From contig JAHJIY010000085.1 of the NCBI GenBank assembly GCA_018823175.1, positions 1 to 64,000 on the forward strand: a stretch of 64,000 bases of DNA. The letters run 5' to 3'. The notes under the pieces are model-generated. The model saw only the letters and a program-made list of their open reading frames with translations, searched no databases and was not told the DNA's origin. This DNA is from Pseudomonadota bacterium. Lineage in GTDB: Bacteria > Desulfobacterota > Desulfobulbia > Desulfobulbales > JAHJIY01. Numbering within the stretch: the first letter of the stretch is position 1; the number at the start of each line of letters is the position of its first letter. The position numbers and the translations under genes were made by a program. Shown piece by piece: positions 18,828 to 48,140 of this stretch.

Positions 18828-19253
18828 TTATTTAATCTTGGATCGGAGATAGGAAATAGTATCATTAATAGTATCTGCCAATTCTTTGAGAGGGTCTTCC
18901 TCCCGTAACTTTATCTCTTTGTCAATGTTGCCAGCCTGAATGATTTTCAAATCTTCTTCTATCCGAAAAACAGGACCAGCCAATTTTTGTGGTAGGAATA
19001 AGGCCAGCAGAGTACCGCTAAACAAGCTGACAAAGGTACCGGCAAGGATAACTGGAATAAGCAGATCACTTACTTTCCTTATTTTGATGTGAGCATCATA
19101 AAAAGAATTTCCGACTTCCTGGCTCGAATAAAAATACAGGATTATTGCCGCAATAATGGAGCTTAATAATACTGTTCCCAGTATTCTTGTCAACAACCAC
19201 ATTTGAAATCTTTTTTTAACTTGGAGATTAAGTTTTTTTCTTTTGTATTGCAT
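18828..19253 (-). CDS. HAMP-domain membrane protein
   Basis: A 141-residue inner-membrane protein with two transmembrane segments (about 18-43 and 63-87). A HAMP-like region follows, starting LAGPVFRIEEDLKIIQAGN and ending in a helix. There is no kinase, methyl-accepting or cyclase domain after HAMP, so it cannot signal by itself. It lies 56 bp after the pentaheme cytochrome gene at the end of the minus-strand run and may be a partner for it. The family occurs beside cytochromes, but its role is unknown. Confidence 0.65.
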   Translation of the reverse strand: MQYKRKKLNLQVKKRFQMWLLTRILGTVLLSSIIAAIILYFYSSQEVGNSFYDAHIKIRKVSDLLIPVILAGTFVSLFSGTLLALFLPQKLAGPVFRIEEDLKIIQAGNIDKEIKLREEDPLKELADTINDTISYLRSKIK

Positions 19254-19309
19254 TGTTAGCCCGTCCTGTTTTTGAGGGTATACTTGTTTTTGTCAGGTTG
19301 GAGAAATTA

Positions 19310-20512
19310 TTACAGCATATCTTTATGACAACCTACGCAAAGTTCTTTATTGGATGCTTTTATCGTCCGGTATGGAAAGTCGGAACCATGTTTTATATGA
19401 CATGACATGCAGGTTATGCGACCATCCGGCAGAGTAGAATACTCAGGCGGGATGGTCATTCCTTTTTTTGGGTAGACGTTAACCGGATGAGAAAGCCCCT
19501 TTTTGTATTGTTGGTGGCAGTTAAAACAAATTGGGATGGTTAACACAAATGGTTCATTGGTGATTACATGCCGAACCACCTCAAGGCCTTCATCGTTGTT
19601 CCCGTATTGCGGTTTCTTCGTAAGATCCATGGTGCCGAGACTTATTGGAACTGATTGGTTAGCGGAAATTTTAACTAGATAGTTTCCATCGCTTTGGAAT
19701 ATTTCTGTGTCGATCTTGAAATCTTTGGCTTTTATTCCTTTTTCAACATTGTTGGTTTCAAGATTTGAGAATGTATTTTTTGTTGATAAAGTTAATTGAT
19801 CTGAGACCGTCTGGTTACCGAAAATATCTTCGGAAATTACCTTGAACAAGTATGTTTTGTTGGGCTTGATATCGGTCAGTGTTATTTGATGTTTTTTGGT
19901 GAAGAGGCTTACCTGGGGAGAATAGTTATTTAACTTCTTAAGTCCGTAATTGACCATTGAATTCGCCATTTCGTCAGTTTCCCAGCCGATTGTGGCTGAA
20001 AAAAACAGACCTTTCTCGACTTCGAGTACTTTTACGTTGGTTATTTTGGGAGGTGTATGGTCATTATCATATCGTTTTAGTTCAGCAAGCGGAGGTAACG
20101 GCAGTTCGTTTTGAATGATTTCTTTTTTGTTTACTTCTGCTTCAATTAAAAGGGTGGCCTTTGTTTCGATTAAAAGGCCAGTTTTGGCCTTGGAGGCAGG
20201 AAAGTTGAACCAGTGAACCTGGCTTGGAGTGTAATTGCGACCAAGCCATTTGACGCGGTTCCGCTTTTCGGCCGCTTCTGCATAAAGTTCTTTTTCCGAG
20301 GGAGGAGCGGTATGGCAATCCTGGCATTTTTGTTGTAAAAAAGGTAGGTGAACAAATCGTTTCGAACTCCCTTCCTGCCAGATATCATCATGGCAGTCGA
20401 GACATTTTTCGGCGGCTGATGTCTCGGCAAGGGCCGTTCCGGTCATGGTGACAAAAAGAAGGGCGACCAAGAGGAAAAATCCATAATAATATTTATATAG
20501 AACTTTAAGCAT
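19310..20512 (-). CDS. pentaheme c-type cytochrome with fibronectin-like middle domain
   Basis: A 400-residue exported protein with a signal peptide (about 1-29, ending GTALA). Two CXXCH motifs (CLDCH, CQDCH) lie near the N-terminus and three (CFNCH, CMSCH, CVGCH) near the C-terminus. The 200 residues between have a fibronectin-III-like stretch (TPPKITNVKVLEVEKGLFFSA ... and KTYLFKVISEDIFGNQT). The last motif is seven residues from the end. A plausible promoter upstream is TTGCCC at 20669-20674 and TATGAT at 20646-20651 with a 17-nt spacer. It could be a periplasmic electron carrier with a docking domain. Confidence 0.85.
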   Translation of the reverse strand: MLKVLYKYYYGFFLLVALLFVTMTGTALAETSAAEKCLDCHDDIWQEGSSKRFVHLPFLQQKCQDCHTAPPSEKELYAEAAEKRNRVKWLGRNYTPSQVHWFNFPASKAKTGLLIETKATLLIEAEVNKKEIIQNELPLPPLAELKRYDNDHTPPKITNVKVLEVEKGLFFSATIGWETDEMANSMVNYGLKKLNNYSPQVSLFTKKHQITLTDIKPNKTYLFKVISEDIFGNQTVSDQLTLSTKNTFSNLETNNVEKGIKAKDFKIDTEIFQSDGNYLVKISANQSVPISLGTMDLTKKPQYGNNDEGLEVVRHVITNEPFVLTIPICFNCHQQYKKGLSHPVNVYPKKGMTIPPEYSTLPDGRITCMSCHIKHGSDFPYRTIKASNKELCVGCHKDML

Positions 20513-20645
20513 GCTGATCCCTTAAAATATTTGTTAACCCGGACTGACAGGTTTTTGTGGTAATAATGCACGTGGCAATATCACAACAGGGTTTAGATCA
20601 ACTTTTTCATTTGGATGAATGTTTACTTTTCTCAATATCAGAATA

Positions 20646-20674
20646 ATCATATCACATTGTAAGGGTGTGGGCAA
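20646..20674 (-). promoter_or_regulatory. sigma70-like promoter for pentaheme cytochrome
   Basis: On the minus strand, TTGCCC, 17 nt, TATGAT. The expected start is about 130 nt upstream of the ATG at 20512. Confidence 0.5.
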
Positions 20675-20723
20675 AGAAGAAAATTTACGGAAACCAGAGA
20701 AAAAATTTATTGGTTATAAACGA

Positions 20724-20760: not shown

Positions 20761-20783
20761 GGAAAGAAATTTAAATAGTTTGT

Positions 20784-21521
20784 TTATTCGACGGATACCT
20801 TGGCATCTTCGATTATTATATCGTAACGATATCCGGACCCAAAATCCTTGTCGGCAGTCAGGGTGCCGCTGATTAAAACAGTGTCGCCAACCTTAACCAT
20901 TACGTCGGCGTCAGTAGTCACCGTAAGATCGTTTGTTCCCTGGCTACCACTACCGTCCTGTACATGGAGCCAGTTTTTACCCATGATCTGTTTTGTGAAT
21001 TTTACGGCTTTGCCTCGGAACATAACGGGTTTGCCGTTGAGGTCCGCCTTCCCGGCATAAATTTCAGCAATGGTATGACCGTCAACCGCTTTCTCTATTC
21101 CGCTGAAATCGATTTGCTCAGGGCTTATCGTGCTTGGGTGGTCAGCCGGCATATCTGCTGATCCGATAGTCTGGTCCGCGCCAGCCACTATGATCAAGGA
21201 GACAAAGTAAATCATCTCAAATTCACGATTCAGGGTTTTGCTTTGGAAGTTTTGGATAGGAGAGCCCTGGGGCATGGAAACTTCATCGCCGACTTTGAGC
21301 GCGGTACGGGGCCCAGCGGCCCATATTTTTTCAGAGCCGGTATCAATTTGTACATAGGTGTAACCGGATGCATCCATGGTTTCAGTTACCGTACCCGATA
21401 GAGAGGCTCCTGGCTGGTTGATTTCGGTCGGGGCTTGTTCGACCGATTTGGTTTTTTCATCGTTACAGCCGACAGTCATGGTTAATAGAACACTTAATGA
21501 TAATATGATAAATTTTTTCAC
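20784..21521 (-). CDS. NrfJ-like lipoprotein, second copy
   Basis: GTG at 21519-21521 is the preferred start: AAGGAGG lies 8 nt upstream and the product then begins MKKFIILSLSVLL with lipobox TVGC. The frame itself is open from 21542. The mature protein of about 225 residues has the segment GTVTETMDASGYTYVQID ... KIWAAGP and a second OB-like part with GKPVMFRGKAVKF ... GKNWLHVQDGSG, matching the paralogue at 9825-10700 but with a shorter linker. It sits inside the cytochrome island. Its function is not settled. Confidence 0.75.
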   Translation of the reverse strand: MKKFIILSLSVLLTMTVGCNDEKTKSVEQAPTEINQPGASLSGTVTETMDASGYTYVQIDTGSEKIWAAGPRTALKVGDEVSMPQGSPIQNFQSKTLNREFEMIYFVSLIIVAGADQTIGSADMPADHPSTISPEQIDFSGIEKAVDGHTIAEIYAGKADLNGKPVMFRGKAVKFTKQIMGKNWLHVQDGSGSQGTNDLTVTTDADVMVKVGDTVLISGTLTADKDFGSGYRYDIIIEDAKVSVE

Positions 21522-21542
21522 GGTGTATTCCTCCTTGCGCAT

Positions 21543-23426: not shown

Positions 23427-23528
23427 TAATTTTCGTGAGGTGCAAAGAGATGAGTAACTCAAAGAGTATTTGTCTCACAACATGATTTAGGGCTCGGATT
23501 GTCAGTTTCTGAGAATTAATTAAATAAA

Positions 23529-23557
23529 AAGGGGATATCTTTTAAAGATATCCCCTT
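23529..23557. terminator. bidirectional terminator
   Basis: Perfect 14-bp arms (AAGGGGATATCTTT and AAAGATATCCCCTT) around a single T. It lies between two convergent genes with A/T-rich flanks, so it can serve both. Confidence 0.85.
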
Positions 23558-23579
23558 CTTATTTATGGTGTGATTTTGA

Positions 23580-25049
23580 TTAATTAATAACTGATATCCC
23601 TACAGGTTTGGCCCCTAGTTCTATAGTGCTGTTCATCCGGTTGGAGGTAATATCTACTACGCTTAAGCCTTTTGAGTTTTCATCTCCGATATAAAGCCAT
23701 TGGTGATTTTCAGTTATAGCCATTTCCAGTGGTCGTCGGCCGATTTTAATCTCTTTTGAAGCAGTAAATTGCCCTGGAATCAGTAGTGAAGCAGTACCAT
23801 CCAGAAAATTTGTTATGTATATGCTGTTGGAGGTTGCAATAAGTCGCCGCGGAGAAAATCCCACATTAAACCTCTTGATAATTTTTCTGCCGGTTAACTC
23901 GTAAATGGCAACGGTATTAACTTCCGGTTCTGTAATGTACAACAGGTCATCCCAAACCATTAGGCCCAGGGGGGGGCTACTTACAGGAAAAGACTCTATA
24001 ATTTTAAGGTTGTTGGGGTCAACCAGGTATACCGATTGATCCATGGCGGAAGAAACAGCAAGAAGACCTTGTTCTTGCATGTAAAGCACATATTGCGGGT
24101 GCTGTCCTATTTTTAGTTGATTTGTAATGTTGCCGGTCTGCAGATCAAGATTAATCAGGAGATTTTTTCTGCCGTCCAGAATATAGGCCCGGCTGGTATC
24201 CTTATTTAGTGCCATATGGACGGGATCAATCAGTGTAGGTATCTTTATGATGTCCAGCAGGAGATTGGTTGAAAGGTCGATGACCTTAACGGCGGATTCA
24301 TCAGCCGCCAGGATATAGAGGCGGTGGGTCGCCAGGTTAGTTGCCAGGTAGGTGGGACTTCCTGATACTCCTAATGAACCATACACCATGTTTTTATCGG
24401 TCCGGACGATATAGATGGTGTCGATTTCCGGGCAGGCGATATACGCCAGATTGGTGATTATCGGCAGGGTCTGCGAGCTGGTTACCGCAACAACCATTTT
24501 GTCCATCCGGTTGTCTTTGATTGAAGCGTTCACATCCCAATCCAGGAAGAAGGAGTGACTATTCCCTTGCGCCATATTCAAAGGTGCAGGTAATACTATT
24601 TCAGTAAATGGTTTCGTTACAGTTATCGGAATTTTTTTGCCTTCTTCTATGAATGCGGCTTTGGTGGTTGTTATCCTGATTTGAATATAATCGCCGGTTG
24701 GCATTATTTTTCTACCGATGAAAATTTGTTCTTTTCCTAACTTTGCTGTGTCTATTTCGAGAGGACCGGAGGTGATAGTGAGCCAATTATCACCATTGAG
24801 TACTTCAATCGCTGAGATTTGGGTCCATATATGAGGCACATCAGGTTGTCGTAAATTCAGGAAAAGAGACAGTCGACCACCGGTATTGGGATCCATCCCA
24901 ACAATACAGGTCGCATCTAATGTTTTCTGGGAGGATTGGGGGATGGTCAGGCAGCCGACGGGTAGAAACAATATCAAGACAAGGAGTAAACGCTGAATAA
25001 CAGTATAAAACATGCAGTGGTAGGTTGTGGCGTTACTGTTATTATTCAC
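23580..25049 (-). CDS. YVTN-type beta-propeller lipoprotein
   Basis: A 489-residue predicted lipoprotein. GTG at 25049 has AAGGAG about 6 nt upstream. The hydrophobic segment ends in PVGC near residue 33. Residues about 45-200 form an all-beta domain (LEIDTAKLGKEQIFIG ... GDYIQIRITTTKA). The rest repeats propeller blades such as NLATHRLYILAADESAVKVID and VYLVDPNNLKIIESFPV. Such propellers act as scaffolds or binding surfaces. The OmcS-like gene is 82 bp upstream on the same strand, so this protein may help export, cap or anchor the filament. Confidence 0.75.
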   Translation of the reverse strand: MNNNSNATTYHCMFYTVIQRLLLVLILFLPVGCLTIPQSSQKTLDATCIVGMDPNTGGRLSLFLNLRQPDVPHIWTQISAIEVLNGDNWLTITSGPLEIDTAKLGKEQIFIGRKIMPTGDYIQIRITTTKAAFIEEGKKIPITVTKPFTEIVLPAPLNMAQGNSHSFFLDWDVNASIKDNRMDKMVVAVTSSQTLPIITNLAYIACPEIDTIYIVRTDKNMVYGSLGVSGSPTYLATNLATHRLYILAADESAVKVIDLSTNLLLDIIKIPTLIDPVHMALNKDTSRAYILDGRKNLLINLDLQTGNITNQLKIGQHPQYVLYMQEQGLLAVSSAMDQSVYLVDPNNLKIIESFPVSSPPLGLMVWDDLLYITEPEVNTVAIYELTGRKIIKRFNVGFSPRRLIATSNSIYITNFLDGTASLLIPGQFTASKEIKIGRRPLEMAITENHQWLYIGDENSKGLSVVDITSNRMNSTIELGAKPVGISVIN

Positions 25050-25131: not shown

Positions 25132-26184
25132 TTATTTTTTGGTGGTATGACACTCGCCGCAACCATCATAACCACCGGCGGGCCAATTTTTATAGTCCCA
25201 GCGAAGATTGGCATCGTATGGGCTGCCATGGGCCCGGTGGCAGGATAGGCACATGACGATTGCATCAGCAGGCCCGTCTAGTATTGTAGATTGAGTACCT
25301 CCTATTACGTCAAGATCACTTGCTACCGGAGAGACTACACTATAATTTTTACCCGCTGGTCCGTATTGGGAAATATCGGAGTTACCCATATCATAATCGC
25401 TTGGATGACGGACCCAGGGATTTGTAAATATACCCTCAGTGACACCTTTATTGTCCGCACCACTGTGAAAGTCACCATGGCAATTGGCGCAGAGATAATT
25501 GATGGAAGTTGGGTCTAAATCGGACTCATTAATCCGGTCTTTGGCGTTATACTGATTGTGGTTGAGGTTATCAACGGTCAGTTCCCAATCCACGTCTTCA
25601 ATGCCGGCAATCCCGTCAAGGAAACGGTAACTTTCGCTGAGGGAGGCACCGGTTGTCGCCGCCGGCGTATTACTGTGGTGGGTTTTGTACATTGACATCG
25701 TCGGGTTGATTACACTTCGATTGCCGTGGCAACCCCTGCTGCCGGCACATTGCAGAGGCGCGTAATTTGTTGATGTAGGGTTCCCCGGTGCTGGTCCTGA
25801 GGGAAAAAAGGCTACGCCGTCCACATTATGACCTTGTGCATTACTGCCTTCGGAAACCCAGCGGAAGTTCCCGCCGGCCAGAGTATTTCTGGTTGACGCT
25901 CCACTTTCGGTTCCTGTGGTGTCATAGTCGGCGGTGGGGTCGAATACGTATGGTGTACTTCCCTCCGAGTTTGTTCCCTGGTGGCATCCATAGCAGGTGT
26001 TGATCAATAAGGCCTCGTTGCCGGTGGTGTAGGCGGCGGAACCCATGGTCTTGCTGTCCTGGCTGTTGTGCATGGTATGGCAGTTGGCGCAACGATCCGA
26101 CATAGCCGCCGTTCTGGCCAGGCAGATACCAGGTGCTGTCAGGAAAAAAGCCACAATAATAAACCATGGTTTCTTAGCCATCAT
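25132..26184 (-). CDS. OmcS-like hexaheme cytochrome, candidate nanowire subunit (copy B)
   Basis: A 350-residue exported cytochrome. After a signal peptide (about 1-24) the heme order is CANCHTMHNS, CYGCH, CAGSRGCH (five residues between cysteines), CANCHGDFHSG, CLSCHRAHGS and CGECHTTKK at the very end. Geobacter OmcS, a filament-forming six-heme cytochrome, has the same order with near-identical flanks: CHTMHNS at heme 1, CANCH with a nearby His at heme 4, an RHP segment between hemes 4 and 5 (here WVRHPSDYD), CLSCHRAH at heme 5 and a C-terminal CXXCHAKD. Only the third motif differs (CSSCH in OmcS). The propeller gene lies 15 bp upstream, so they are co-transcribed. Filament formation is inferred, not shown. 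Confidence 0.85.
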   Translation of the reverse strand: MMAKKPWFIIVAFFLTAPGICLARTAAMSDRCANCHTMHNSQDSKTMGSAAYTTGNEALLINTCYGCHQGTNSEGSTPYVFDPTADYDTTGTESGASTRNTLAGGNFRWVSEGSNAQGHNVDGVAFFPSGPAPGNPTSTNYAPLQCAGSRGCHGNRSVINPTMSMYKTHHSNTPAATTGASLSESYRFLDGIAGIEDVDWELTVDNLNHNQYNAKDRINESDLDPTSINYLCANCHGDFHSGADNKGVTEGIFTNPWVRHPSDYDMGNSDISQYGPAGKNYSVVSPVASDLDVIGGTQSTILDGPADAIVMCLSCHRAHGSPYDANLRWDYKNWPAGGYDGCGECHTTKK

Positions 26185-26199: not shown

Positions 26200-27096
26200 C
26201 TATCGGCTAAAAATCTCTACTCGACCGTTACCCGAATCAACAACGCAAAGTCTTCCCCAAGGGTCGAATAATAGATCCTCCGGATAATAAAGCTCCCCCC
26301 GGCCATGACCTTTGCTCAGGAAGTTATATTTGAAAGAGCCGGTTTGATCAAAAACTGCAATAGTTCCATTGTGTCGATCAAGAATATAAAGAAGTCCGGC
26401 CGGTCCGATCTCTAAAGCAAAAGGAAAAGCCAGGCTGCCTTTTAATTGAATTTTTTCAGATTGAGGGCCGTCTGTATTAAATTTATAAACCGCCTTTTCG
26501 GTCCGGGCCAAGGCCCAAATATTCCCGGATTTGACCGTGAAATCAATGAAGCCGCTGGTGCATTCAGGGCAGCCGTAATGTTTAATTCCTTTTAATTTGC
26601 GGTCAAAAAGAATTATATCTCCGGAAGATTTGTCCAGAAGATAGGTGTTTTCCCCATCAATAAAAAGTCGGTCGGGAAAGACTGAAACGCCGCGATATTG
26701 AAGGGAGTGGTTTTCTATTTTTTTCTCTTTGAGGTCTATTTCGGTTAAACTGTTTCTTCCTTTTTCGATGACCCACATTAAACCGTCTTTCTCGCGAACA
26801 ATATCAGTAGGCGTCTTAAGTTTGTTGCTGGCGCTGAATGCATTAAGATAGATCCCTTCTCGCTTAAACGAAAGAAGTCGGTTGTTGCCGGCATCAGCGA
26901 CATAATAGCGTTCCAATTCCTGGTCGACAAAAATATTCCCCGGCAGCAGCATGGGCTTAGTTTTGTCATCGTTGGGTTGATCGCCTCGCAAGCTAAATTG
27001 CCATTGCCATGGATCTTTGGCCAAGGCAGAGGTAAAACACCCTGAGACCAGGATGAAAAGAGACAATATAATAATCGTCAAATGTGTTTTTCTCAT
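26200..27096 (-). CDS. NHL-repeat beta-propeller lipoprotein
   Basis: A 298-residue protein with a lipoprotein signal (LVSGC at about 16-20) and six-bladed NHL-type repeats: VDQELERYYVADAGNNRLL, PTDIVREKDGLMWVIEKGRNSL, and a terminal YYPEDLLFDPWGRLCVVDSGNG. NHL propellers bind proteins or sugars. It is 15 bp upstream of the OmcS-like gene, an arrangement also known for omcS in Geobacter, which supports a role in making or placing the filament. Confidence 0.82.
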   Translation of the reverse strand: MRKTHLTIIILSLFILVSGCFTSALAKDPWQWQFSLRGDQPNDDKTKPMLLPGNIFVDQELERYYVADAGNNRLLSFKREGIYLNAFSASNKLKTPTDIVREKDGLMWVIEKGRNSLTEIDLKEKKIENHSLQYRGVSVFPDRLFIDGENTYLLDKSSGDIILFDRKLKGIKHYGCPECTSGFIDFTVKSGNIWALARTEKAVYKFNTDGPQSEKIQLKGSLAFPFALEIGPAGLLYILDRHNGTIAVFDQTGSFKYNFLSKGHGRGELYYPEDLLFDPWGRLCVVDSGNGRVEIFSR

Positions 27097-27267: not shown

Positions 27268-28440
27268 TTAATAACTTTTGTGGCACTGGATACACAAATC
27301 TTTGCCGCCACTCAATTTAAGATTGAATTTGAAATTTGTGCCATGCGGATAGTGGCAACTGACACAAGTCACTTGTTGCCCGGTCCGAGGGTCAAGGACT
27401 GTTCCGCCAACCGGATGAGTAAACTGACCCTGGGTCTTATGACAGGAATCGCACACTTCAATGCCGTTGCCTTTCAGCATCGCCATATTATTTGAGCCGT
27501 GTAAGGCATGGCAATCACTACAGGAGCCGGTATCAGGATGGCTATGCAGGGTGTTATCATATCCGGCAAAGGTGTTGGCGTGGCAGCTGCGGCAAATCTG
27601 ATTCTGGCGGTTTTTCAACATGCTATTACTGTCCGCGGCGTGGGGACTATGGCATTTCACGCAACTATTAACCGCTTTATCAGTCAAATGATTATGGGCC
27701 GATAAAAGCTGATCCATGATTTCTTCATGGCATTCCAGACATTTATCGGTTTTTACCGGTCCTTTTTCATGACAATCACTGCAGCCTTCTTTGTATGGGG
27801 CATGCAAAACGTTACGGATCAGGTTCTTTCGTTCGCTACCATGTGGGTTATGGCAGGAAAGACATACGCGCAAACGACCGGGAAACCCTTGGTGTTTTTG
27901 TTGCAAGATATTTTCCTGATGACATTTGCTGCAAAGTTTGTCCGGCTCATCGTTAAGTAATTGAGCCCTTTCAGATTGATGGGCGCGATGACATGCCCCA
28001 CAATCACCCTTTTCATAGGGTTGGTGGGTGTAATCATATTTTTTAAGCAGGGTCTTATGACACTTAAAACAGTTTTCACCGGGGGCGCTTTCATTCAATA
28101 ATCCTTTATTTGACGAGGCGTGTGGGGCATGGCAAGACAGGCATTCCCCTTTTTTTACCGGTTTGTGAACGATGCCCTTGCTGAAAGATTCAATTTTATC
28201 CTGATGGCATTGGTAACAGAGTTCGGAGACTTCGCTTGATAAGAGATTTTTATAACGGGCAACATGCGGGTTGTGACATGAAGAACATTTGTTTTCAGCT
28301 ACCGGGCTATGCACGACCTTGCCACTGAAATTTGCTTTTTTATGGCATTTAAAACAGGTAGTGTTGGCCTCCGCCGAAACAATACTGGTAAAAAAGCAGG
28401 TCAGTAATATTAACAGGGACAATTGAATGTTTTTGTTCAT
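27268..28440 (-). CDS. 16-heme c-type cytochrome
   Basis: A 390-residue exported protein with a signal peptide (about 1-24, ending VSAEA) and 16 CXXCH motifs, one per 23 residues. They occur in pairs of the doubled-CXXCH type, with the second often followed by PHG, PHA or AHQ that supplies distal His ligands. There is no lipobox, so it is probably periplasmic, like MtrA-type subunits inside a porin. Its ATG overlaps the TAA of the 26-heme gene by one base (TAATG), which points to coupled and stoichiometric synthesis. Confidence 0.92.
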   Translation of the reverse strand: MNKNIQLSLLILLTCFFTSIVSAEANTTCFKCHKKANFSGKVVHSPVAENKCSSCHNPHVARYKNLLSSEVSELCYQCHQDKIESFSKGIVHKPVKKGECLSCHAPHASSNKGLLNESAPGENCFKCHKTLLKKYDYTHQPYEKGDCGACHRAHQSERAQLLNDEPDKLCSKCHQENILQQKHQGFPGRLRVCLSCHNPHGSERKNLIRNVLHAPYKEGCSDCHEKGPVKTDKCLECHEEIMDQLLSAHNHLTDKAVNSCVKCHSPHAADSNSMLKNRQNQICRSCHANTFAGYDNTLHSHPDTGSCSDCHALHGSNNMAMLKGNGIEVCDSCHKTQGQFTHPVGGTVLDPRTGQQVTCVSCHYPHGTNFKFNLKLSGGKDLCIQCHKSY

Positions 28441-34359: not shown

Positions 34360-34512
34360 AAGCCTTACCTCTTTCTCCACGAAACCCGGAAAATAAAAGT
34401 GAATAGTGACAAGTTGAAAAGTTATGGCGTTATCTGATTTGACTGTTTTCTGTGTTGCTCGAAGTCTGTCGTTTACCTGGAGTCTATAACTTCACAGTTG
34501 ATACCTCGTGTT

Positions 34513-35182: not shown

Positions 35183-35251
35183 GCCTGGTACCCCTTTATC
35201 CTTTTGATTTACGGTTAATCGACTTCTCTGGTCATACAAACGAAGCCGCGG

Positions 35252-37357: not shown

Positions 37358-37396
37358 CAGCTGGATAATATACTTCCCGGTTGTCCGCCAATCCAC

Positions 37397-37425: not shown

Positions 37426-37826
37426 CCGACGTACCCCCCCCAGGGTACTTCCTTATGAATGTAAAAAATCATCTAACACGTTTAGTTCAGGTTTACTTAA
37501 TTACATATTATTTTTTGATTAACACTAATTTTTAGCCATAAAAAAGGTTATCCAACTCTGTGTTATCTGTAGACAACGTAAAGCATGCAAAATGATTTCG
37601 CCACAACCTATGCTTAGAGTCAGCGTTATAAGATTGCCACGTCACAAAGTTTATACCCCTTGCGGGGTGCTTCTTGCAAAGACTTGCAAGGTTTCGTCTC
37701 TACAGTAAGCCCAAATTAGATGGTAACCAGATATTATTTCAACTGCATGCAAAGTCCATAATGTACATGTGCACCGCCGCCCGCCGGGATATTCCCCCGG
37801 CGGGCGGCGGTGCGATTATTCGTCGA
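37426..37826. other. intergenic region, barrel to cytochrome
   Basis: No convincing gene. It contains the inverted repeat at 37431-37448, an ACCCCTTGCGGGGT palindrome near 37655, a CTTGCAA/TTGCAAG inverted pair near 37674-37690, and the 17-bp GC-rich stem at 37771-37813. The density of small palindromes suggests repeat debris. Confidence 0.5.
37771..37813. repeat. 17-bp GC-rich perfect stem-loop
   Basis: Arms 37771-37787 and 37797-37813 are perfect reverse complements (GCACCGCCGCCCGCCGG) with a 9-nt loop. It sits 14 bp after the stop of the 14-16-heme cytochrome gene. No T-run follows on either strand, so it may stop transcription weakly or protect the 3' end of the message. Confidence 0.8.
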
Positions 37827-39828: not shown

Positions 39829-39915
39829 GAGTGCTTCTTAATTATTTGTCTGCCTGGGGAAATTCTTCTGGAACGAGAATCGGGTAAAAATGGATGGTCT
39901 TGTTGATAAATCAAC

Positions 39916-39955
39916 AAAAAAAGCGCTGAACCGAAAATCGGTCAGCGCTTTTTTT
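39916..39955 (-). terminator. intrinsic terminator of OmcS-like gene A
   Basis: Stem GCGCTG/CAGCGC, a one-base bulge, then ACCGA/TCGGT with an AAA loop. Seven A on the left give a T-run on the minus strand. It lies 68 bp after the OmcS-like stop codon. Confidence 0.92.
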
Positions 39956-39966
39956 GTTTCTCAGGC

Positions 39967-40022: not shown

Positions 40023-41057
40023 TTATTTTGAGGTATGACAGATAAAGCAACCAGCCTCAGCAGAACCGACTGTATCATCACCTGGAAATGCAGCAAGAGT
40101 GGTTCCGGCGTTCATGTTAGCAAGATTCCAACGCAGGAGATCCGGGTAGGCTGAACCATGGGACATATGGCAGCTGAGACAGATTACCTGACCGGTCGTG
40201 GTGTTGGTGTTGGTCATTTCGCCCAGAGGAATGGCTGGGTTATAAACGCCACCATTGGCGTCATTATATGCTTCACCAGTCAGGTTGGCATTTACTGGGA
40301 TATCGGTTGGATGCCGCTTCCAGATCTGAGCAGATCCAGCACCAGCGACACTCAATTGGTTTGACGAGCCATGGAAATTGCCGTGACATACGCCGCAAAC
40401 GGCTGCGCCCATACCGTTAGTTATATCAGCTGAATAACGACTAGAGCCGACAACTTCGGCTGCATCGTATCCGTAGTTAATGCCTTCAGTGCCGTCGACA
40501 AATACTGCGGAACCTTGTACTTCAAGGAAGCGGTAGCTGCCACCGTTTGTTGTGCCAACGGTATTTAATACAGTATTTGCGTTGGAATGATGAGCGCCAA
40601 CTGCATTATGACAACCGAGAGCGCCACTACAGGACAGAGTATTTGCAGCAACAGCTCCACCTGGTGAAACGGTCAAAGTGCCGTCATTGGACTGTTTACT
40701 AACGGCAATTAGATCGGCCACATTGTGAGTTTGATTTGAAGTATTTGAAAAATAGCCACCGGCCAATGGATTTGCAATGTCGTTAACCTGTGGTGCTGCT
40801 GGGCCGTTTGCGCCACTTGAGTAACCAGTGGCGGTGTTTGGGTCCGCGTTATGCGCATGGCAACCAACGCAGTTATTGGCCAATAACAGCTGGTTGTTAC
40901 CGGTGGTATAAGCAACCCCACCGACTGATGCTCCGTCCTGGCTGTTGTGCATGGTGTGACAGCCGCTGCATGGTCCACCCAAGGCAAAAACGGTGGCTGG
41001 CAATGCCAGGGCCGCAGTTGCAAGGGCAGCGATGATTGTTCTTTTTACTGTAATCAT
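40023..41057 (-). CDS. OmcS-like hexaheme cytochrome, candidate nanowire subunit (copy A)
   Basis: A 344-residue exported cytochrome with a signal peptide cleaved near VFA-LGG. The heme order is CSGCHTMHNS, CVGCH, CSGALGCH (five residues between cysteines), CGVCHGNFHGS, CLSCHMSHGS and CFICHTSK at the C-terminus. Spacing and flanks match copy B at 25132-26184 and Geobacter OmcS, including an RHP segment between hemes 4 and 5 (WKRHPTDIP). It has its own promoter, an AGGAGG ribosome site, two 3' hairpins and no co-transcribed gene, as expected for a highly made structural protein. It is the stronger candidate for the major filament subunit. Confidence 0.87.
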   Translation of the reverse strand: MITVKRTIIAALATAALALPATVFALGGPCSGCHTMHNSQDGASVGGVAYTTGNNQLLLANNCVGCHAHNADPNTATGYSSGANGPAAPQVNDIANPLAGGYFSNTSNQTHNVADLIAVSKQSNDGTLTVSPGGAVAANTLSCSGALGCHNAVGAHHSNANTVLNTVGTTNGGSYRFLEVQGSAVFVDGTEGINYGYDAAEVVGSSRYSADITNGMGAAVCGVCHGNFHGSSNQLSVAGAGSAQIWKRHPTDIPVNANLTGEAYNDANGGVYNPAIPLGEMTNTNTTTGQVICLSCHMSHGSAYPDLLRWNLANMNAGTTLAAFPGDDTVGSAEAGCFICHTSK

Positions 41058-41368: not shown

Positions 41369-42091
41369 TTAGATATTTTCTCCATTTAATTTATCGAGCA
41401 AAGCTTTCGAGATTTCCTGGAGCAGGGTAGCAACTAATTTTTGGGGCTGCGGGTCGTTTTTGATCGGTCGGCCGATCACCAGATGATCAGCTCCGTTGAT
41501 TATGGCCTGGCGGGCAGTGGTCACCCGGACCTGATCGGCCCGGGCGCTGCCGGCCGGGCGCACTCCTGGAGTGACAATGGTGAAATCGGTGCCCAGATGG
41601 CGGCGGAGCATGGCCGCCTCCTGGGCCGAGGCCACAATCCCGTCACTGCCTAATGCCAGGGCCTGGCGGGCCCTTTCCAGTACCAGTTCGGTCAGGGGAA
41701 TGGTGATTCCCATCCGGCGCAGATCGTTTTGGTCAAAGCTGGTGAGGACGGTCACCGCCAGAATCTGCAGCTCTTTGCGGTCGCGGAGGGCGGCGGCAAT
41801 CATCGGTTCGTTGCCGTGCACAGTGGCGAAGGTGATGCCACGTTCGGTAAGCTGCTGGACCGCAAGGTGGACTGTTTCCGGAATATCAAAAAATTTGAGG
41901 TCGACCATCACCTTGTTGCCGCGTCTGATGATTGCGTCAATTACCGGAAAACCGCCGGCCAGAAAGAGCTGCAGGCCGACCTTGAAAAATTTGATTTGGG
42001 CATCTAGCCTTGCCACCCAGTCCAGAGCAGTTTCGGCCTGGGCAAAATCCAGGGCAAAGATAATTCTTTCGTTTAAAGGAATATTTTTCAT
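41369..42091 (-). CDS. pyrF: orotidine-5'-phosphate decarboxylase
   Basis: A 240-residue TIM-barrel enzyme for the last step of UMP synthesis. It has IIFALDFAQ with the substrate Asp, the catalytic DLKFFDIPET motif (Asp-x-Lys-x-x-Asp-Ile) and the phosphate-binding TPGVRPAG and IGRPIKN segments. It sits 34 bp after the TMTC-like gene, at the end of a run of electron-transfer genes with which it has no known link. Confidence 0.96.
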   Translation of the reverse strand: MKNIPLNERIIFALDFAQAETALDWVARLDAQIKFFKVGLQLFLAGGFPVIDAIIRRGNKVMVDLKFFDIPETVHLAVQQLTERGITFATVHGNEPMIAAALRDRKELQILAVTVLTSFDQNDLRRMGITIPLTELVLERARQALALGSDGIVASAQEAAMLRRHLGTDFTIVTPGVRPAGSARADQVRVTTARQAIINGADHLVIGRPIKNDPQPQKLVATLLQEISKALLDKLNGENI

Positions 42092-42125
42092 CGGTTAGGG
42101 TAAATCTCCGGGGTTTGATTTGTTA

Positions 42126-44042
42126 TTATTGTATTTTGCGCAATAATTGTTGTCGGTATCGGGTCATCGCCTCGCGGCCCATATCCATATTGTTGCAGAT
42201 CAGGGCCTGGTCCAGGGCGGCGATCGCGGCCGGAATTTGATTTTGGCCGGCCAGGGCAAAGGCCAGCCTTTGATAGAGCCGACCATCGCGCGGGTCAAGA
42301 TTGAGCCCTTGACGGAATGATTTTTCCGCCAGTTGGTGGCGACCAAGCAGGCCAAAAACCACCCCCTGATTAAGCCAGGGATCAACCAGTAAAGGGTCGA
42401 ACTGGATCGCGGCGGCCGCCTCGGTCAGGGCCCGGGGCAGGTCGTCTAATTTTATGTAAATTATCGCCAGGTTGTTGTGAATTTTGGCCGGCGACACATT
42501 GGGGTGACCCAGCGCCTGTTCAAAGCAGTTTTTGGCCTCGGTCAAAAGGTTAAGTCTTTCATAGGACCGACCCAGATTAAGCCAGGGCGTGCCATTTTTG
42601 TGGTCAAGCCTGATCGCCTCGCGCAGGATGGAGATTGCCTTGAGGTGATTGCCGGCCATCTCATGGGCCCGGCCCAGATTGGCATATCCCCGGCCCAGGT
42701 TGGGGGATTTTTTTACCACATCCGACCAGAGGCTGATCTCACTGGCCCAGACCTTATTACGCTGCCAGGTGCCCAGGCAAAGAAACATGATCACCAGTGC
42801 AAAAAAGAGACGCCGCAAGATTTGACGTTGGGCAAAAATCTGGGCCAGTCCGACCACTCCGGCCAGGATCAGCATAGTGGAAGGCAGATAAAGCCGATGT
42901 TCAAAGATCAACTCCAACGGAAGGATGGTTGACTCAATGGCCAGATTGGCCAGAAACCAGAAAAGACCGAAGGACAGAAGTTTATGCCGCTTAAACAGGT
43001 ATGCGGTTAAGACCAGTAGGCCGATGATCCCCAGGAGGGCCAGTAAGGTCTGGGGCGGCGCCAGCAGGGAGTGAGAAATCTGGTAATCGTAGGCCAGATT
43101 CAGACGGGAAGGTAGGGGCAGTAAGATCAGGCCCAGATAATGAAAGATGATTCTGCTCTCGGTTAACAGCCGCTCCAGCATAGTGAAATCCCTGCCCCCG
43201 AAACCATGAGTAATCGCGGTAAATGGATTTGTGCCCAGGTAAAGCCAACCGACTACATATAAGACAACAAAAGTGATGAGCAGGGACGGGACTATTATTT
43301 TATAATCAGTTTTTTTTGCCTGGTTTCGAAGAAAATAAAACTCATAGGCCGGAATGATCAGAACCAGCATGGCGCTGTTTTCCTTGCTGAGCATGGCCGC
43401 CAGGCCGCAGAGCAGGCTGCCGGTCCACCAGAGATATGAGCGGATGGGGAAAAAGGTGGCAACCGGGAAGGGATGTTTTTGTTTTTCTGGTAATGACCGA
43501 CAAGCAAGAAAGGCAAGGCGCCCTCGGACATAACAGAGCAGGGCGGCCAGATAAAAAAAGGCGGCCATACTGGTCATCCGCTGGACCAGATAGGTTACGG
43601 CATTGGTCTGCAGCGGATGGACCGCCCAGAGCAGAGCGGCAATTAACGAGAGTTCCATCGCCGCCCGGGGTTTAAAGTCGATCTGAGGTAAGATTAAGGT
43701 GGTAAAAGAAAGGCCATAGAGCAGAAAGGCGGTCAGTAAATGGATCGCGAGATTGACCAGGTGATAACCAAAAACTTCGTAGCCATGAAAATAATAGTTG
43801 AGGCCGAAACTCAAGTTCGGCAACCAGCGGTGTTTAAGTGGGCTCCTGGTCGTTAGTTGGTGCAAAGAGTTCCAAGATAATTTATTGATCCGCAGGGCGT
43901 GATTCTCGGTAATATTTTGTTCATCATCAAAGCTGAACGGAGTCTGAAAAGAGTTGGCATAGGTCAGAGTTGTTAAGATGAGCAGGACTAAGGCCGGCAG
44001 TAAAAACAGATGAATTAAATTTTCAGACTTGTGGATCTTCAT
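42126..44042 (-). CDS. TMTC-like GT-C glycosyltransferase with TPR tail (copy A)
   Basis: A 638-residue membrane protein. The first loop carries the Asp pair in FSFDDEQNI (about 37-45), the position of the catalytic acidic motif in TMTC O-mannosyltransferases and other GT-C enzymes. About ten transmembrane segments follow to residue 425, with loops such as HGYEVFGYHLVNL and WAVHPLQTNAVTYLVQRMTS. The C-terminal 190 residues are TPR repeats (LGRGYANLGRAHEMAGNHLKA). It probably transfers a lipid-linked sugar to exported protein. Residues 71 to about 450 are nearly identical to the protein at 48699-50378. It is downstream of the NHL/cytochrome run. Confidence 0.75.
   Translation of the reverse strand: MKIHKSENLIHLFLLPALVLLILTTLTYANSFQTPFSFDDEQNITENHALRINKLSWNSLHQLTTRSPLKHRWLPNLSFGLNYYFHGYEVFGYHLVNLAIHLLTAFLLYGLSFTTLILPQIDFKPRAAMELSLIAALLWAVHPLQTNAVTYLVQRMTSMAAFFYLAALLCYVRGRLAFLACRSLPEKQKHPFPVATFFPIRSYLWWTGSLLCGLAAMLSKENSAMLVLIIPAYEFYFLRNQAKKTDYKIIVPSLLITFVVLYVVGWLYLGTNPFTAITHGFGGRDFTMLERLLTESRIIFHYLGLILLPLPSRLNLAYDYQISHSLLAPPQTLLALLGIIGLLVLTAYLFKRHKLLSFGLFWFLANLAIESTILPLELIFEHRLYLPSTMLILAGVVGLAQIFAQRQILRRLFFALVIMFLCLGTWQRNKVWASEISLWSDVVKKSPNLGRGYANLGRAHEMAGNHLKAISILREAIRLDHKNGTPWLNLGRSYERLNLLTEAKNCFEQALGHPNVSPAKIHNNLAIIYIKLDDLPRALTEAAAAIQFDPLLVDPWLNQGVVFGLLGRHQLAEKSFRQGLNLDPRDGRLYQRLAFALAGQNQIPAAIAALDQALICNNMDMGREAMTRYRQQLLRKIQ
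42685..43832 (-). repeat. inverted repeat, left copy (inside TMTC-like gene A)
   Basis: About 1.15 kb of near-identical sequence to 48918-50075 in opposite orientation. Identity starts and ends abruptly at the same protein positions. Limits are approximate because I aligned by eye. Confidence 0.8.
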
Positions 44043-44173: not shown

Positions 44174-45853
44174 TTAATTATTATGATAGAGAAACCAGCC
44201 GCCCAACAGTCCCAGGGCGGCGACTGGTCCGTAGACCCCGAGCGAAGCCAGGAGCGTCAGGTAACCTGATTTGCCGGCGGGAAAGGTGATGGTCGCGCCA
44301 ATTTCCGGGACGGCGACAATTACTTGCGGAGGATTAACGAGCGGCGGGGTCAGGAGGGTCATTTTTTTTTTCGGTGGTTCGATCTGTTTGGGTCCGATTT
44401 TGATTATCTCACCTGGTAATTCGGTGCTTTCTGCGATGAATTTAATTTGGGTCAGGACCGGGCCGGCCAGGTGAGGAGGTTTAACCGGTTTGGCCGGAGT
44501 CGGCGGACTGACCGCCGTAATCTGGGCGGCTTCGGTGTTGGCTACGGTCGGCACCAAAGCCGTTTCAGCCAGCGGCTCTTCCGGTGGGCTGATTTCCGAA
44601 ACCTGGGGCAGGGCCGGGCTTAAAACCGGACGCCTGGTTCCCATGTTCGGGTCAATTACCTGTACCCGGCGGTTAAACAGGTCGGCGACGATGACGTTCC
44701 CTTTTTGGCCGACGGCAATATTGTTCGGGTAATTGAACCAGAGCGGACCGCTACCTTGGCCTCCGAACTCGAAGATATATTTGCCGGTTAAATAATCATA
44801 ACAAATTATGGTGTGGCGCATATAGTCTACCACGTAAATCGCCTGGTGGACTTCATCAATTCCCAGGGCTAGAGGGGTGCTCAGTTTTCCTGTCGCACCT
44901 CCTTTCTCGCCAAAGGCGAGGAGAAACTCGTGTTTATCATTATAAACATAGATCCGGCTGGTTTCGGTGCTTAGCAGATAAATACGTCCTTTTTGATCAA
45001 TGACCACATCGTTCACGAAGACCGGCAGTTTTTGCTCTTTTATGCCAAGAGGTTGATCTGATTCCTTGGCGGTGGGTAGAAACTCTGCCGGCAAATTGGC
45101 CAGTTCAGCGGCAATTTCCTGGGCGGTTTGATCTTCCGGGGTGATATTGGCCTCGGGGGTCGGAGCCTTTGGTTCCGAAGCTTTTTCAGCTTTTGGCGCG
45201 CGGTAGACAATGTCGGTGGGGGTTATCCAATTAAGAAATTTGCCATTGGGGTCAAGAACCAGAACGCCCTTTGTGTTTTCCTGCTTAGCAAGTAAGATCC
45301 CACATATATAAATATTTCCTTGTTGGTTTACCGCAACGCGGGATGGATTAAAGGAAAGAACCTCAGGAATTTGATCGAAGAAGATTTCTTTTTCCAGAAA
45401 AAATGCGGCATTCAGGATCGTGATTCGTGGACGATTTTTGGGATTTTTAACGCTGGAACCTACTTGTCCTGTTCCCTGGCAAAGATAAATAGAACCTTTT
45501 TTGTCAACAAAGATCCCAGAAGGGTTAGTGATATTGCGGCCTTGGCCTAGAGAGATCTCCGGGAAATAATCGTCCCCGTAGATGGTTATGCGACCGGTGG
45601 AACTAACGACATAGGTTTCTTTTGTAGTGTAATCGTAGAATACGTCAGTCGGGATATTAATTGGCAATCCCTGATCATCGATTTTTAAGATCGTCACCAT
45701 CCGGATCGGGACCTGGTCGTCAAGCGCCAGGACAATTGACGGGCAGATGACGGCCGTAAGAAAGGCACTCAGGATGCAGAGCTGCACGGTTGATTTCCGG
45801 AGCAAGGCCAAAGGGCCTGATTTTGTATGTATATGTAATAAAGTTACTGACAT
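44174..45853 (-). CDS. NHL-repeat protein with C-terminal membrane anchor
   Basis: A 559-residue protein with an N-terminal signal/anchor (about 28-44), six NHL-type blades between about 60 and 420 (for example IFVDKKGSIYLCQGTGQVG, LALGIDEVHQAIYVVDYMRHT, NNIAVGQKGNVIVADLFNRRVQVIDP) interrupted by a charged insertion (about 215-265), a Pro/Ala-rich linker, and a final transmembrane helix (about 530-556). The C-terminal helix may anchor a periplasmic propeller in the inner membrane. It lies 28 bp after the decaheme cytochrome gene in one operon. Confidence 0.78.
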   Translation of the reverse strand: MSVTLLHIHTKSGPLALLRKSTVQLCILSAFLTAVICPSIVLALDDQVPIRMVTILKIDDQGLPINIPTDVFYDYTTKETYVVSSTGRITIYGDDYFPEISLGQGRNITNPSGIFVDKKGSIYLCQGTGQVGSSVKNPKNRPRITILNAAFFLEKEIFFDQIPEVLSFNPSRVAVNQQGNIYICGILLAKQENTKGVLVLDPNGKFLNWITPTDIVYRAPKAEKASEPKAPTPEANITPEDQTAQEIAAELANLPAEFLPTAKESDQPLGIKEQKLPVFVNDVVIDQKGRIYLLSTETSRIYVYNDKHEFLLAFGEKGGATGKLSTPLALGIDEVHQAIYVVDYMRHTIICYDYLTGKYIFEFGGQGSGPLWFNYPNNIAVGQKGNVIVADLFNRRVQVIDPNMGTRRPVLSPALPQVSEISPPEEPLAETALVPTVANTEAAQITAVSPPTPAKPVKPPHLAGPVLTQIKFIAESTELPGEIIKIGPKQIEPPKKKMTLLTPPLVNPPQVIVAVPEIGATITFPAGKSGYLTLLASLGVYGPVAALGLLGGWFLYHNN

Positions 45854-45881
45854 TTTGTATTTTGCTCTTTGCGTGAATTGG

Positions 45882-47093
45882 CTAGAACTTCATTTTCCCG
45901 CGATCTCCACCACTATGACACAATAGGCAGATTTGGCCGCCCCGAATGTCTTCGATCAGTAAATACTTGTAGGTTGAGCCGTGGGGATTATGACAACTGG
46001 TACAGGTAAAGGGCGAACCTTCACGGCGCGGATCTTTTGGTCCGGAAAGGGGGTGTTTCTGCACCGGGTGGTCGTAGTCCATGCCTTCCAGGGCGCCATG
46101 ACAACTGGTGCATAATTTGTTAATCGGTTCATACAACTGAAAACGATTATTGGTGGCGTGCGGGCTGTGGCAGGCCACGCAACCCTGGGCATTCAGGATT
46201 CCGTGTATGTTTGCCCGCGGGGTGTCTGTTTGAATGTATTTCTTTTTATCGGCGTGGCAGGCCACGCAGATTTTGCTTTTGCCGTCGGTCCATAACTGGT
46301 ATTGGTTTCGTTCGCCATGGGGGTCATGGCAGATCGTGCAGTCTCCGGTGCCGACCGGCCCGTGAATATGAGACATGCTGCTCCAGGCTCTTTCGTTGAC
46401 ATGACAGCGAAAGCAGAGTGACTCAATCCTGCCGGTGGGGATGACGACCTTTTCTTCTTTGCTTTTGTCTGATTGATGGCAGGAAAGACAGAAGAGGTTG
46501 GCGGATGGACTGTGGCGCCATTTCGATTCCAGCACGGTCGAGCTGTGACATGAGTAGCAGGTGGTAGAAAGCTGGCCGTAGAGGGCGCGATCTACCTGGG
46601 CCTCGGTCGGTAGTTTGTTGTCGTGGCAGATGTTACACTCTTTGGGACTGGTGGTCTCGCGGTGAAACAGGTAGGTAGATGTGCTGGAAAAGTCAACGTT
46701 TAACAGGGAGCGCAGCGGTTTAAATCGGAAGTCAAGCTCCCGGTTTACCGGCGCAATGTTGAATTTGTTGCCGCCTTTTTGCAGGGGAAGTTTGTAGTGG
46801 ACGTAATGATTGCCGTCCTTTTCCCATTTGCCGATCGGATCAAAACTGCGGCCATCGGCAGATTTCATCGAAACCTTGGTCAGGTCACCCGATTCCGTTA
46901 ATTTCAGGACCACGTGCACCACGGGATTTCTGGAATAGATTTCGCCATCGCTTTTTGGAGCCAGGACTGATATTTCACCGGCCGTGGCTGAAATAGTGAA
47001 ACCGGTAAGTGGCATCAGAAAAAAGGCCAGGACTGTCAGGTTGAAGATGATCCTGGTTGATATTGTTTTTTGATTTGGAGTTTGCTCGGTCAA
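45882..47093 (-). CDS. decaheme c-type cytochrome
   Basis: A 403-residue exported cytochrome with ten CXXCH motifs from about residue 150 on, after a signal peptide and a beta-rich non-heme domain (about 38-140; GEISVLAPKSDGEIYSRNPV) like that of the protein at 37827-39563. The heme part uses doubled motifs with CHDPHG, CHSPHA and CHNPHG. The start is TTG at 47093 with GGAGG 6 nt upstream. It sits 12 bp after the thioredoxin-fold/TPR gene and 28 bp before the NHL gene. Confidence 0.9.
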   Translation of the reverse strand: MTEQTPNQKTISTRIIFNLTVLAFFLMPLTGFTISATAGEISVLAPKSDGEIYSRNPVVHVVLKLTESGDLTKVSMKSADGRSFDPIGKWEKDGNHYVHYKLPLQKGGNKFNIAPVNRELDFRFKPLRSLLNVDFSSTSTYLFHRETTSPKECNICHDNKLPTEAQVDRALYGQLSTTCYSCHSSTVLESKWRHSPSANLFCLSCHQSDKSKEEKVVIPTGRIESLCFRCHVNERAWSSMSHIHGPVGTGDCTICHDPHGERNQYQLWTDGKSKICVACHADKKKYIQTDTPRANIHGILNAQGCVACHSPHATNNRFQLYEPINKLCTSCHGALEGMDYDHPVQKHPLSGPKDPRREGSPFTCTSCHNPHGSTYKYLLIEDIRGGQICLLCHSGGDRGKMKF

Positions 47094-47105
47094 GGATCGC
47101 CTCCG

Positions 47106-48140
47106 TTATTTAAGCATGGATTTTTTGAAAAGTAGTTCGTAGGCGCTACGATATTCCTTGGCGGCGTCATCGATTTGTTTTTGTTCTTCAAGCAGGGTGG
47201 CCAGGATATAATGCAGGTTGGCATCCCTTGAGCTGCGCAGCATTAGAAATTTGAGATCGTCAATCGCTTCGCCCGGGTTGCCTTCTTTGGCTTTGACTCG
47301 GGCCCGGCAAATCTGACCGTCTAGTGAGTCCGGGTTGAGTTTCAGACTTTTGGCCAGAGATTCTTTGGCTAAATCAATTTTATCGATGTCAATATAAAGG
47401 CAACCCAGTTGCTCGTGGGCTTCGGACATATTCGGTTCAAATTCGACCGCTTTATTAAATTCGATAATCGCCGCGTCCGGCTGGCCCCGCTGGATCATGG
47501 TCAGGCCCATATGCATGTGGCGTTTGGCGTCTTTTTCTTCCTTGGATTTTTCGACCATTTGAGGGCGTAGCTCCTCTTCGACCTGGGCGCGGGTTTTTTC
47601 GCCCAGCATAACCTCGATTTCGCCTTTCAGTCTTTTGGGAAGGTCACGGCTGTAACCCATGCCGGCCACGACCTTGCCCTGTAGGTCGACCAGCATGATC
47701 GAAGGCATGACAAAAATGCCTAGTTCACCGTAGGCTTTACGGTCAGGATCCAGATATACCGGCATCGAAAATTCGGCGGCGGCCAGCACTTCGTCAATAA
47801 CCTCGGGGCCGTCATTTTGAATATCTATGCTCAGTAGTTGTATTTTTTTATCTTTTAAAAAAGGAGAGAGTTTTTTGATGACTTTGAGGGTGTCGATTGA
47901 ACGTTTTTTCTTGGTAGGAATATCGGCCCCCCAGAAGACCAGCATCGCGTTGTTGTTGCGTAGCTGTTCCAGGGTCATTTGCTGACTGGACTTATATTCG
48001 GTCAGGGTGACGGTAGGCAGAGGATCGCCGGGATTAACCGCCCGGAAAGGAAAAGAATTTGCTTCACCGGTACCGTTAAGGAACAAAAGAAATGAAATAA
48101 TGCCAACCACCAATGCCGACAAATGTAATCTGTTGCCCAA
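47106..48140 (-). CDS. thioredoxin-fold/TPR protein lacking the catalytic cysteines
   Basis: A 344-residue exported protein. After a signal peptide it has a TlpA/AhpC-like domain (about 36-185; GDPLPTVTLTEYKSSQQMTL, AMLVFWGADIPTKKKRS, IFVMPSIMLVDLQGKVV with the cis-Pro). The redox CXXC is replaced by GADIP, so it cannot do disulfide exchange in the usual way. Residues about 205-335 are TPR repeats. It may be a binding scaffold for apocytochromes or partners. The start is TTG with an AGGGGGG box about 7 nt upstream. It is first in the operon with the decaheme and NHL genes. Confidence 0.82.
   Translation of the reverse strand: MGNRLHLSALVVGIISFLLFLNGTGEANSFPFRAVNPGDPLPTVTLTEYKSSQQMTLEQLRNNNAMLVFWGADIPTKKKRSIDTLKVIKKLSPFLKDKKIQLLSIDIQNDGPEVIDEVLAAAEFSMPVYLDPDRKAYGELGIFVMPSIMLVDLQGKVVAGMGYSRDLPKRLKGEIEVMLGEKTRAQVEEELRPQMVEKSKEEKDAKRHMHMGLTMIQRGQPDAAIIEFNKAVEFEPNMSEAHEQLGCLYIDIDKIDLAKESLAKSLKLNPDSLDGQICRARVKAKEGNPGEAIDDLKFLMLRSSRDANLHYILATLLEEQKQIDDAAKEYRSAYELLFKKSMLK

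Follow-up and report, generated by a model that had tools for sequence, protein, structure and literature searches.

A Desulfobulbales locus of the osc/Oet type with genes for OmcS-like cytochromes and candidate genes for their folding, export and wiring

Cytochrome nanowires attract current interest, not least with regard to the question by what means a cell folds and exports them and makes electrical contact with them. The closest described counterpart of the locus reported here is the osc ("OmcS companion") operon of Geobacter sulfurreducens, GSU2493-GSU2504, which was introduced by Shen et al. 2025 and is cited here via PMC12977616 and PMC13194489. GSU2495 encodes a 26-heme cytochrome and GSU2497 a lipoprotein. 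As far as the two citing papers recount the original work, the OmcS-like GSU2501 is succeeded by a block of eight genes, GSU2500-GSU2493, which was tied to maturation and secretion of the OmcS nanowire (PMC12977616), whereby the names oscC, oscI and oscJ were given to GSU2501, GSU2495 and GSU2494, and functions were proposed for OscH in folding, for OscE, OscF and OscG in secretion and for OscD in nanowire morphology (PMC13194489). An operon with a four-gene core, encoding a six-bladed propeller, a 16-heme and a 26-heme cytochrome and a peptidyl-prolyl isomerase, had been reported from SEEP-SRB1, HotSeep-1, Desulfuromonadales and Desulfurivibrio alkaliphilus, with two copies in D. alkaliphilus AHT2 (Skennerton et al. 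2017, PMC5539420), and a related gene set was subsequently read as the OetABI conduit accompanied by OmcS/OmcX nanowires (Murali et al. 2023, PMC10553843). Here we describe an island at positions 18828-48140 of a 64,000-nucleotide stretch of contig JAHJIY010000085.1 (hereafter the window), which comes from a bacterium of the order Desulfobulbales (assembly GCA_018823175.1). The island is very probably a Desulfobulbales-type osc/Oet cluster, a dedicated machinery which would produce cytochrome nanowires of the OmcS type and link them to the cell.

This assignment draws on gene content, gene order, conservation, the relationship to OmcS and the heme motifs. Between 26200 and 37396 the window parallels GSU2500-GSU2493 in gene content and order, running from OscD via OscE, OscF, OscG, OscH, the 26-heme OscI and the 16-heme OscJ to a propeller gene (Table 1), with an OmcS-like hexaheme gene of the oscC/GSU2501 type adjacent to the block. 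The assignments of OscD to OscH to GSU2500-GSU2496 and of the propeller to GSU2493 were made in this analysis, based on gene order and proposed role, and accessory genes were checked by Pfam and by profiles built for the purpose. As far as the papers on osc show, both loci thus share the eight-gene folding, secretion and morphology block with its 26- and 16-heme cytochromes in the same order and beside OmcS-like hexahemes. The window differs in possessing OmcS-like genes on both sides of the block and a 14-heme cytochrome gene between the second of these and the barrel gene, in using CX5CH at heme 3 of its OmcS-like proteins, in adding 10-heme/propeller/TPR-redoxin and five-heme/HAMP-like modules and in that no Rfam riboswitch was found, whereas omcS was reported to lie under a GEMM-I riboswitch. 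The contiguous genes 26200, 27268, 28440 and 30361 are exactly the four of the Skennerton core, the difference towards SEEP-SRB1 and HotSeep-1 being that the window holds a Desulfobulbales-type set; no sign of a partnership with anaerobic methanotrophic archaea was found, no test being aimed at it. The OetABI set likewise groups in a single cassette a periplasmic cytochrome, an outer-membrane barrel, a cytochrome lipoprotein placed outside the cell and OmcS-like proteins; this likeness to the window is one of gene content, the barrel being a candidate counterpart of OetI (OEU57520.1). 12-heme gene pairs, OmcX-like by heme count, occur in relatives from other classes but not in the window.

A preliminary description of the window had counted eight cytochrome genes with 5, 7, 5, 16, 26, 14, 5 and 10 CXXCH motifs, and a recount on the translated open reading frames (19310, 22098, 25132, 27268, 28440, 37827, 40023 and 45882, in this order) returned exactly these figures, 88 in total. 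Residue-shuffled versions of the cytochromes contained on average 0.01-0.41 CXXCH per protein, with a maximum of 4, and none was found in the non-overlapping open reading frames of the window outside the island. The five expanded motifs mentioned in the same description are real when read as CH pairs lacking a canonical cysteine partner, which is most likely what was meant: three are CX5CH (CTTVPGCH in 22098-23426, CAGSRGCH in 25132-26184 and CSGALGCH in 40023-41057), while one CX4CH and one CX3CH are both found in 37827-39563. The CX15CH and CX16CH strings which also occur in the 16- and 26-heme proteins do not count as motifs, since every CH in these belongs to a CXXCH.

That the proteins encoded at 25132 and 40023 are OmcS relatives is well supported by sequence comparison, as single sequences match OmcS (6ef8) with E 1.8e-8 and 3.1e-9, respectively, and the family profile does so with E 3.5e-27. 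All six OmcS heme positions are present in an alignment of 30 members, which furthermore contains eight conserved histidines outside the motifs; six aligned heme sites and the conserved distal histidines of the OmcS family are hence found, with heme 3 represented by CX5CH. Precisely, heme site 3 reads CxGxxGCH (CX5CH) in 26 of the 30 homologues and CX2CH in the other 4, one member has CX5CH in place of CX2CH at heme 2, and the CX5CH state occurs in relatives from other classes, too. As CX5CH and CX2CH interchange at aligned positions and eight histidines are conserved, the alignment supports binding of heme at CX5CH, with covalent attachment being putative. Text search found no paper on a CX5CH heme site, whereby other spellings would be missed.

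Conservation was followed across 63 loci from named contigs, same-order and other-class genomes, selected so that few loci would be counted twice; a small number of contigs still appear a second time in the other-class set (e.g., L110 as L173 and L104 as L172). The complete eight-gene block was found in order in 43 of the 63, hence the homologues are not scattered; scatter in relatives was the outcome which the preliminary description had named as speaking against its reading. From the barrel gene to the OmcS-like gene, successive neighbour pairs are kept in 45/47 (OscD-OscE), 48/50, 50/52, 51/53, 57/57 (OscH and the 26-heme gene), 59/59, 61/61 (16-heme gene and core propeller) and 62/62 loci (core propeller and OmcS-like gene), and the DUF4382 propeller gene follows the OmcS-like gene in 37 of 58. 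The scan of named genomes used the propeller alignment, the PpiC alignment being too divergent. By propeller, the core was identified in 59 of the 258 genomes sampled within the order, in 38 of 395 of the phylum, where weaker matches may include other propellers, and in 24 of 244 of the class of genome G429. It is present in many Desulfobulbales and Desulfuromonadales genomes, one single-contig genome carrying two copies (L070, L071). Most extra genes recur near the core elsewhere; the whole combination of core and extra genes (14-heme, 10-heme, TPR-redoxin, five-heme plus HAMP-like) was not seen in any examined relative. As a separate observation, a contig labelled Desulfurobacterium (L126:5025-11375) holds OscE-OscF-OscG-isomerase-propeller-OmcS-like genes with a 6-heme protein replacing the 26-/16-heme pair, and is either a reduced version of the block or misbinned.

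For the parts assigned to export, a PelC-like fold, the barrel and the lipoprotein anchors are supported by comparison. The OscG profile matches PelC (9h80_C) with E 5.4e-7, the OscE profile matches structure 5t11 with E 2e-4, an entry which we take to be PelC like others matched by OscE, and most OscE homologues have Pfam LpoB/GNA1162 matches. PelC forms a ring of lipoproteins at the outer membrane and is part of the Pel polysaccharide exporter. The likeness to this exporter lies in the OscE and OscG profile matches, but here the exporter would carry a heme protein, and the window barrel showed no match to PelB. The three CsgG/LpoB-like proteins of the preliminary description do exist (32019, 32743 and 34601), but their CsgG label does not hold: no window protein reaches the CsgG family, for which reason PelC-like is, judged by sequence, the better label for OscE and OscG. 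Weak CsgG matches occur in 2 of 12 OscE homologues, to which PelC/LpoB fit better, and identity with the CsgG (curli) channel was rejected for the LpoB-like proteins. The other components listed at that time, namely three beta-propellers (23580, 26200 and 44174), a PpiC-type isomerase domain (30361), an outer-membrane barrel (35252) and a cysteine-less thioredoxin fold (47106-48140), were all recovered, whereby the two cysteines of the latter protein, 247 and 278, both locate to its TPR part.

The AlphaFold2 model of the barrel has a predicted local distance difference test score (pLDDT) of 84.4, and its DSSP string gives 11 strands, an insert at about 251-406 with weak F5/8C (discoidin) similarity and 17 further strands, about 28 in total. 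Foldseek returned generic outer-membrane barrels with low template modelling scores (TM-scores), the highest among the matches listed being those of MtrB from the Mtr complex (0.35/0.38), and no Pfam or Protein Data Bank sequence match to the MtrB/PioB family was obtained for the window barrel. Lipobox inspection predicts OscI, but not OscJ, to be a lipoprotein. In five genomes (L075, L114, L117, L119 and L121; L074 is the same contig as L121 and was not counted separately) the two are fused into one 42-heme protein (26+16), which argues that OscI and OscJ may act together as a single chain of hemes. A tree built on the 26-heme portion, in which four of the five fusions were included, allowed one or two fusion origins.

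Taken as a mechanism, the OmcS-like six-heme proteins (25132 and 40023) would be exported to the periplasm and folded with the help of the PpiC-type OscH. OscE and OscG, being PelC-like lipoproteins, would join OscF in a collar on the periplasmic side of the outer membrane, and this collar and the barrel OscD would let the filament through or hold it in place. A long heme chain leading from periplasmic carriers to the filament base would be provided by OscJ with its 16 hemes and the lipoprotein OscI with its 26, the propellers being putative scaffolds. Export route, scaffold role and the path and direction of the electrons are what we infer from these parts. As the genome contains dsrA, the electrons could come in from a partner or be passed on to an acceptor, and the machinery would plausibly be used with a partner or an electrode. 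A joint proposal, put forward tentatively, is that CX5CH is a covalent heme site which replaces CX2CH at heme 3 in a large OmcS-type branch, and that the nanowire is exported via a PelC-like collar, above which sits the barrel with its roughly 28 strands and its discoidin-like domain, unlike in curli or Mtr.

Three points weigh against a nanowire-making cluster: the correspondence to the osc operon of G. sulfurreducens is one of gene order and proposed roles; the osc roles are available through later papers citing Shen 2025, to the extent that these report them; and the OmcS-like proteins share few residues with OmcS beyond the heme sites, while the AlphaFold2 model of the subunit, built with 30 homologues, reached a pLDDT of 41, so that no structural statement rests on it and polymerisation of the subunits is only inferred. 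As a real rival, possible though the less probable reading, the island could mainly encode a porin-cytochrome conduit (OetABI), in which the barrel sheathes the 16- and 26-heme proteins and electrons cross the outer membrane, the OmcS-like proteins being accessory terminal cytochromes and not filaments exported by the block. Murali et al. read the OetA/OetI/OetB cassette in this way (PMC10553843), and the very large barrel, the ranking of MtrB among the structural matches, the lipoprotein prediction for OscI but not OscJ and the fusion of both in some genomes are in line with it. On the other side, the TM-scores are low, sequence matches to MtrB-type porins are lacking, the OmcS-like gene always accompanies the block (62/62), three PelC/LpoB-like proteins and a peptidyl-prolyl isomerase are not needed by a conduit alone, and the roles proposed for OscD in morphology and for OscE, OscF and OscG in secretion, as far as PMC13194489 presents them, point to filaments. 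A conduit may be partly true alongside the nanowire cluster, the two perhaps being complementary.

It is improbable that the island is used for sulfur chemistry, or for storing redox equivalents in the periplasm or at the cell surface, instead of for extracellular electron transfer: several species in culture did not express the homologous cytochromes while respiring metals (Skennerton et al., PMC5539420) and dsrA would suit such a function, but two OmcS relatives, an outer-membrane barrel and lipoproteins reside in one conserved block, and operon peptides were detected in situ from bacteria partnering anaerobic methanotrophic archaea (PMC5539420). That the island is novel and was put together in this lineage alone, as suggested by the preliminary description, which knew of no parallel for the full set, is scarcely credible and, for the core, refuted, as the core is described in Geobacter and in partners of methanotrophic archaea and was found here in 59 of 258 genomes of the order, in named relatives and in another class, and most extra genes recur near it, although the full combination with the extra genes was not found whole in any examined relative. 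Its picture of filament subunits, conduit and assembly factors is well supported by the OmcS family match and by osc/Oet content and order. The island itself hence is a further example of a described machine; new with respect to osc, as far as PMC12977616 and PMC13194489 describe it, are the CX5CH motif at heme 3, the likeness of OscE and OscG to PelC, the architecture of the barrel, the OscI-OscJ fusions with 42 hemes and the modules around the core. Locus and relatives form an alignment-ready set, which separates invariant genes (the eight core genes and the OmcS-like gene) from variable ones, and yield testable predictions, namely heme attachment at CX5CH, a collar of the PelC kind and an unbroken chain of hemes through OscI and OscJ.

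Table 1. Genes and hairpins of the island, in order of window coordinates.
Coordinates	Strand	Feature	Basis
18828..19253	-	Small membrane protein, HAMP-like tail (likeness by eye), partner of five-heme cytochrome	
19310..20512	-	Five-heme cytochrome, 2+3 hemes around FN3-like domain	Paired with 18828 gene in relatives
20784..21542	-	Lipoprotein without Pfam match, between cytochrome genes	Lipobox; homologues in L081-L083
22098..23426	+	Cytochrome, 7 CXXCH + 1 CX5CH, convergent to core operon	Homologues in many relatives
23521..23565	-	Strong hairpin with T-rich tail, 20-pair stem, likely core-operon terminator	
23580..25049	-	Propeller with DUF4382 domain, probable lipoprotein, core operon end	DUF4382 E 3e-8, YNCE-like propeller
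25132..26184	-	OmcS-like six-heme cytochrome (5 CXXCH + 1 CX5CH), candidate nanowire subunit	OmcS matches
26200..27096	-	Six-bladed NHL beta-propeller, GSU2493 position	NHL match, synteny
27268..28440	-	OscJ position: 16-heme cytochrome with signal peptide	16 CXXCH
28440..30371	-	OscI position: 26-heme cytochrome, predicted lipoprotein	26 CXXCH, lipobox LTAC
30361..32034	-	OscH position: secreted PpiC/SurA-like prolyl isomerase	Rotamase_2 E 1.3e-14
32019..32648	-	OscG position: PelC-like lipoprotein	PelC profile match, lipobox
32743..34380	-	OscF position: weak LpoB-like N-terminal domain and FlgD Ig-like region	Profiles, synteny
34601..35239	-	OscE position: PelC/GNA1162/LpoB-like lipoprotein	PelC profile match, Pfam in homologues, lipobox
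35252..37396	-	OscD / OetI position: outer-membrane beta-barrel	AlphaFold2 model, F5/8C-like insert, synteny
37770..37814	.	19-bp G+C-rich hairpin between 14-heme and barrel genes	
37827..39563	-	Cytochrome, 14 CXXCH + CX3CH + CX4CH, N-terminal Ig-like domain	
39911..39957	.	Strong hairpin flanked by runs of A and T, like a bidirectional terminator; separates second OmcS-like from 14-heme gene	
40023..41057	-	Second OmcS-like six-heme cytochrome (5 CXXCH + 1 CX5CH), OscC (GSU2501) position	
41369..42091	-	pyrF (orotidine-5'-phosphate decarboxylase), housekeeping, inside island	OMPdecase E 2.7e-47
42126..44042	-	PMT-like membrane protein with TPRs	Near-copy at 48699-50378, inverted
44174..45853	-	Long NHL propeller protein, C-terminal membrane segment	NHL; adjoins 10-heme cytochrome in relatives
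45882..47093	-	10-heme cytochrome	10 CXXCH
47106..48140	-	Thioredoxin-like domain without cysteine, and TPRs	Redoxin and TPR matches

The run of genes that starts with 35252 and ends with 23580 looks like one operon, neighbours overlapping by 1-16 bases at three junctions. The island as a whole is likely to comprise several transcription units and not one operon, because hairpins at 23521-23565, 37770-37814 and 39911-39957 and intergenic gaps of 311-459 bp interrupt it. A promoter-like TTGACA-17-TATTAT is located at 41271-41243, upstream of the second OmcS-like gene. Promoter-like matches, as well as terminator-like matches within 18600-38500, were no commoner than in shuffled sequence, while 36 terminator-like matches compare with 15.4 in shuffles for 37300-48900; only the strongest hairpins were used as terminator evidence. 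No Rfam match reached the gathering score within the window, and sub-threshold Rfam matches in 37300-41500 were rejected as chance hairpin matches.

Homologues of the 14-heme gene lie upstream of the barrel gene in L061, L068, L077 and L079, with 58-61% identity. On a Nitrospirae contig (L134:13487-16853) homologues of the 10-heme, TPR-redoxin and 14-heme genes stand side by side, the latter with 43% identity, which suggests that these three may be a second recurring module. The small protein encoded at 18828-19253 gave no Pfam match, and its homologues are kept next to the five-heme cytochrome in L081-L083, L109, L110, L113, L116 and L120 with 54-78% identity.

The glycosyltransferases which had been placed at the island edge are only partly so located, as the PMT-like gene 42126-44042 lies inside, like pyrF, and conservation lends no support to a link with the island. 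This gene and a second PMT-like gene at 48699-50378 (+) share 87% DNA identity over 1173 bp in inverted orientation; the pair flanks the propeller/10-heme/TPR-redoxin module and could allow inversion of the segment. An STT3/PglB-like oligosaccharyltransferase gene (50393-52582, +) adjoins the second PMT-like gene. At the opposite edge, a 488-residue open reading frame (17249-18715, -) joins HhH-GPD (endonuclease III-like) and exonuclease III-like domains and lies beside an AP endonuclease family 2 gene (16405-17256), thus bringing three base-excision-repair activities together.

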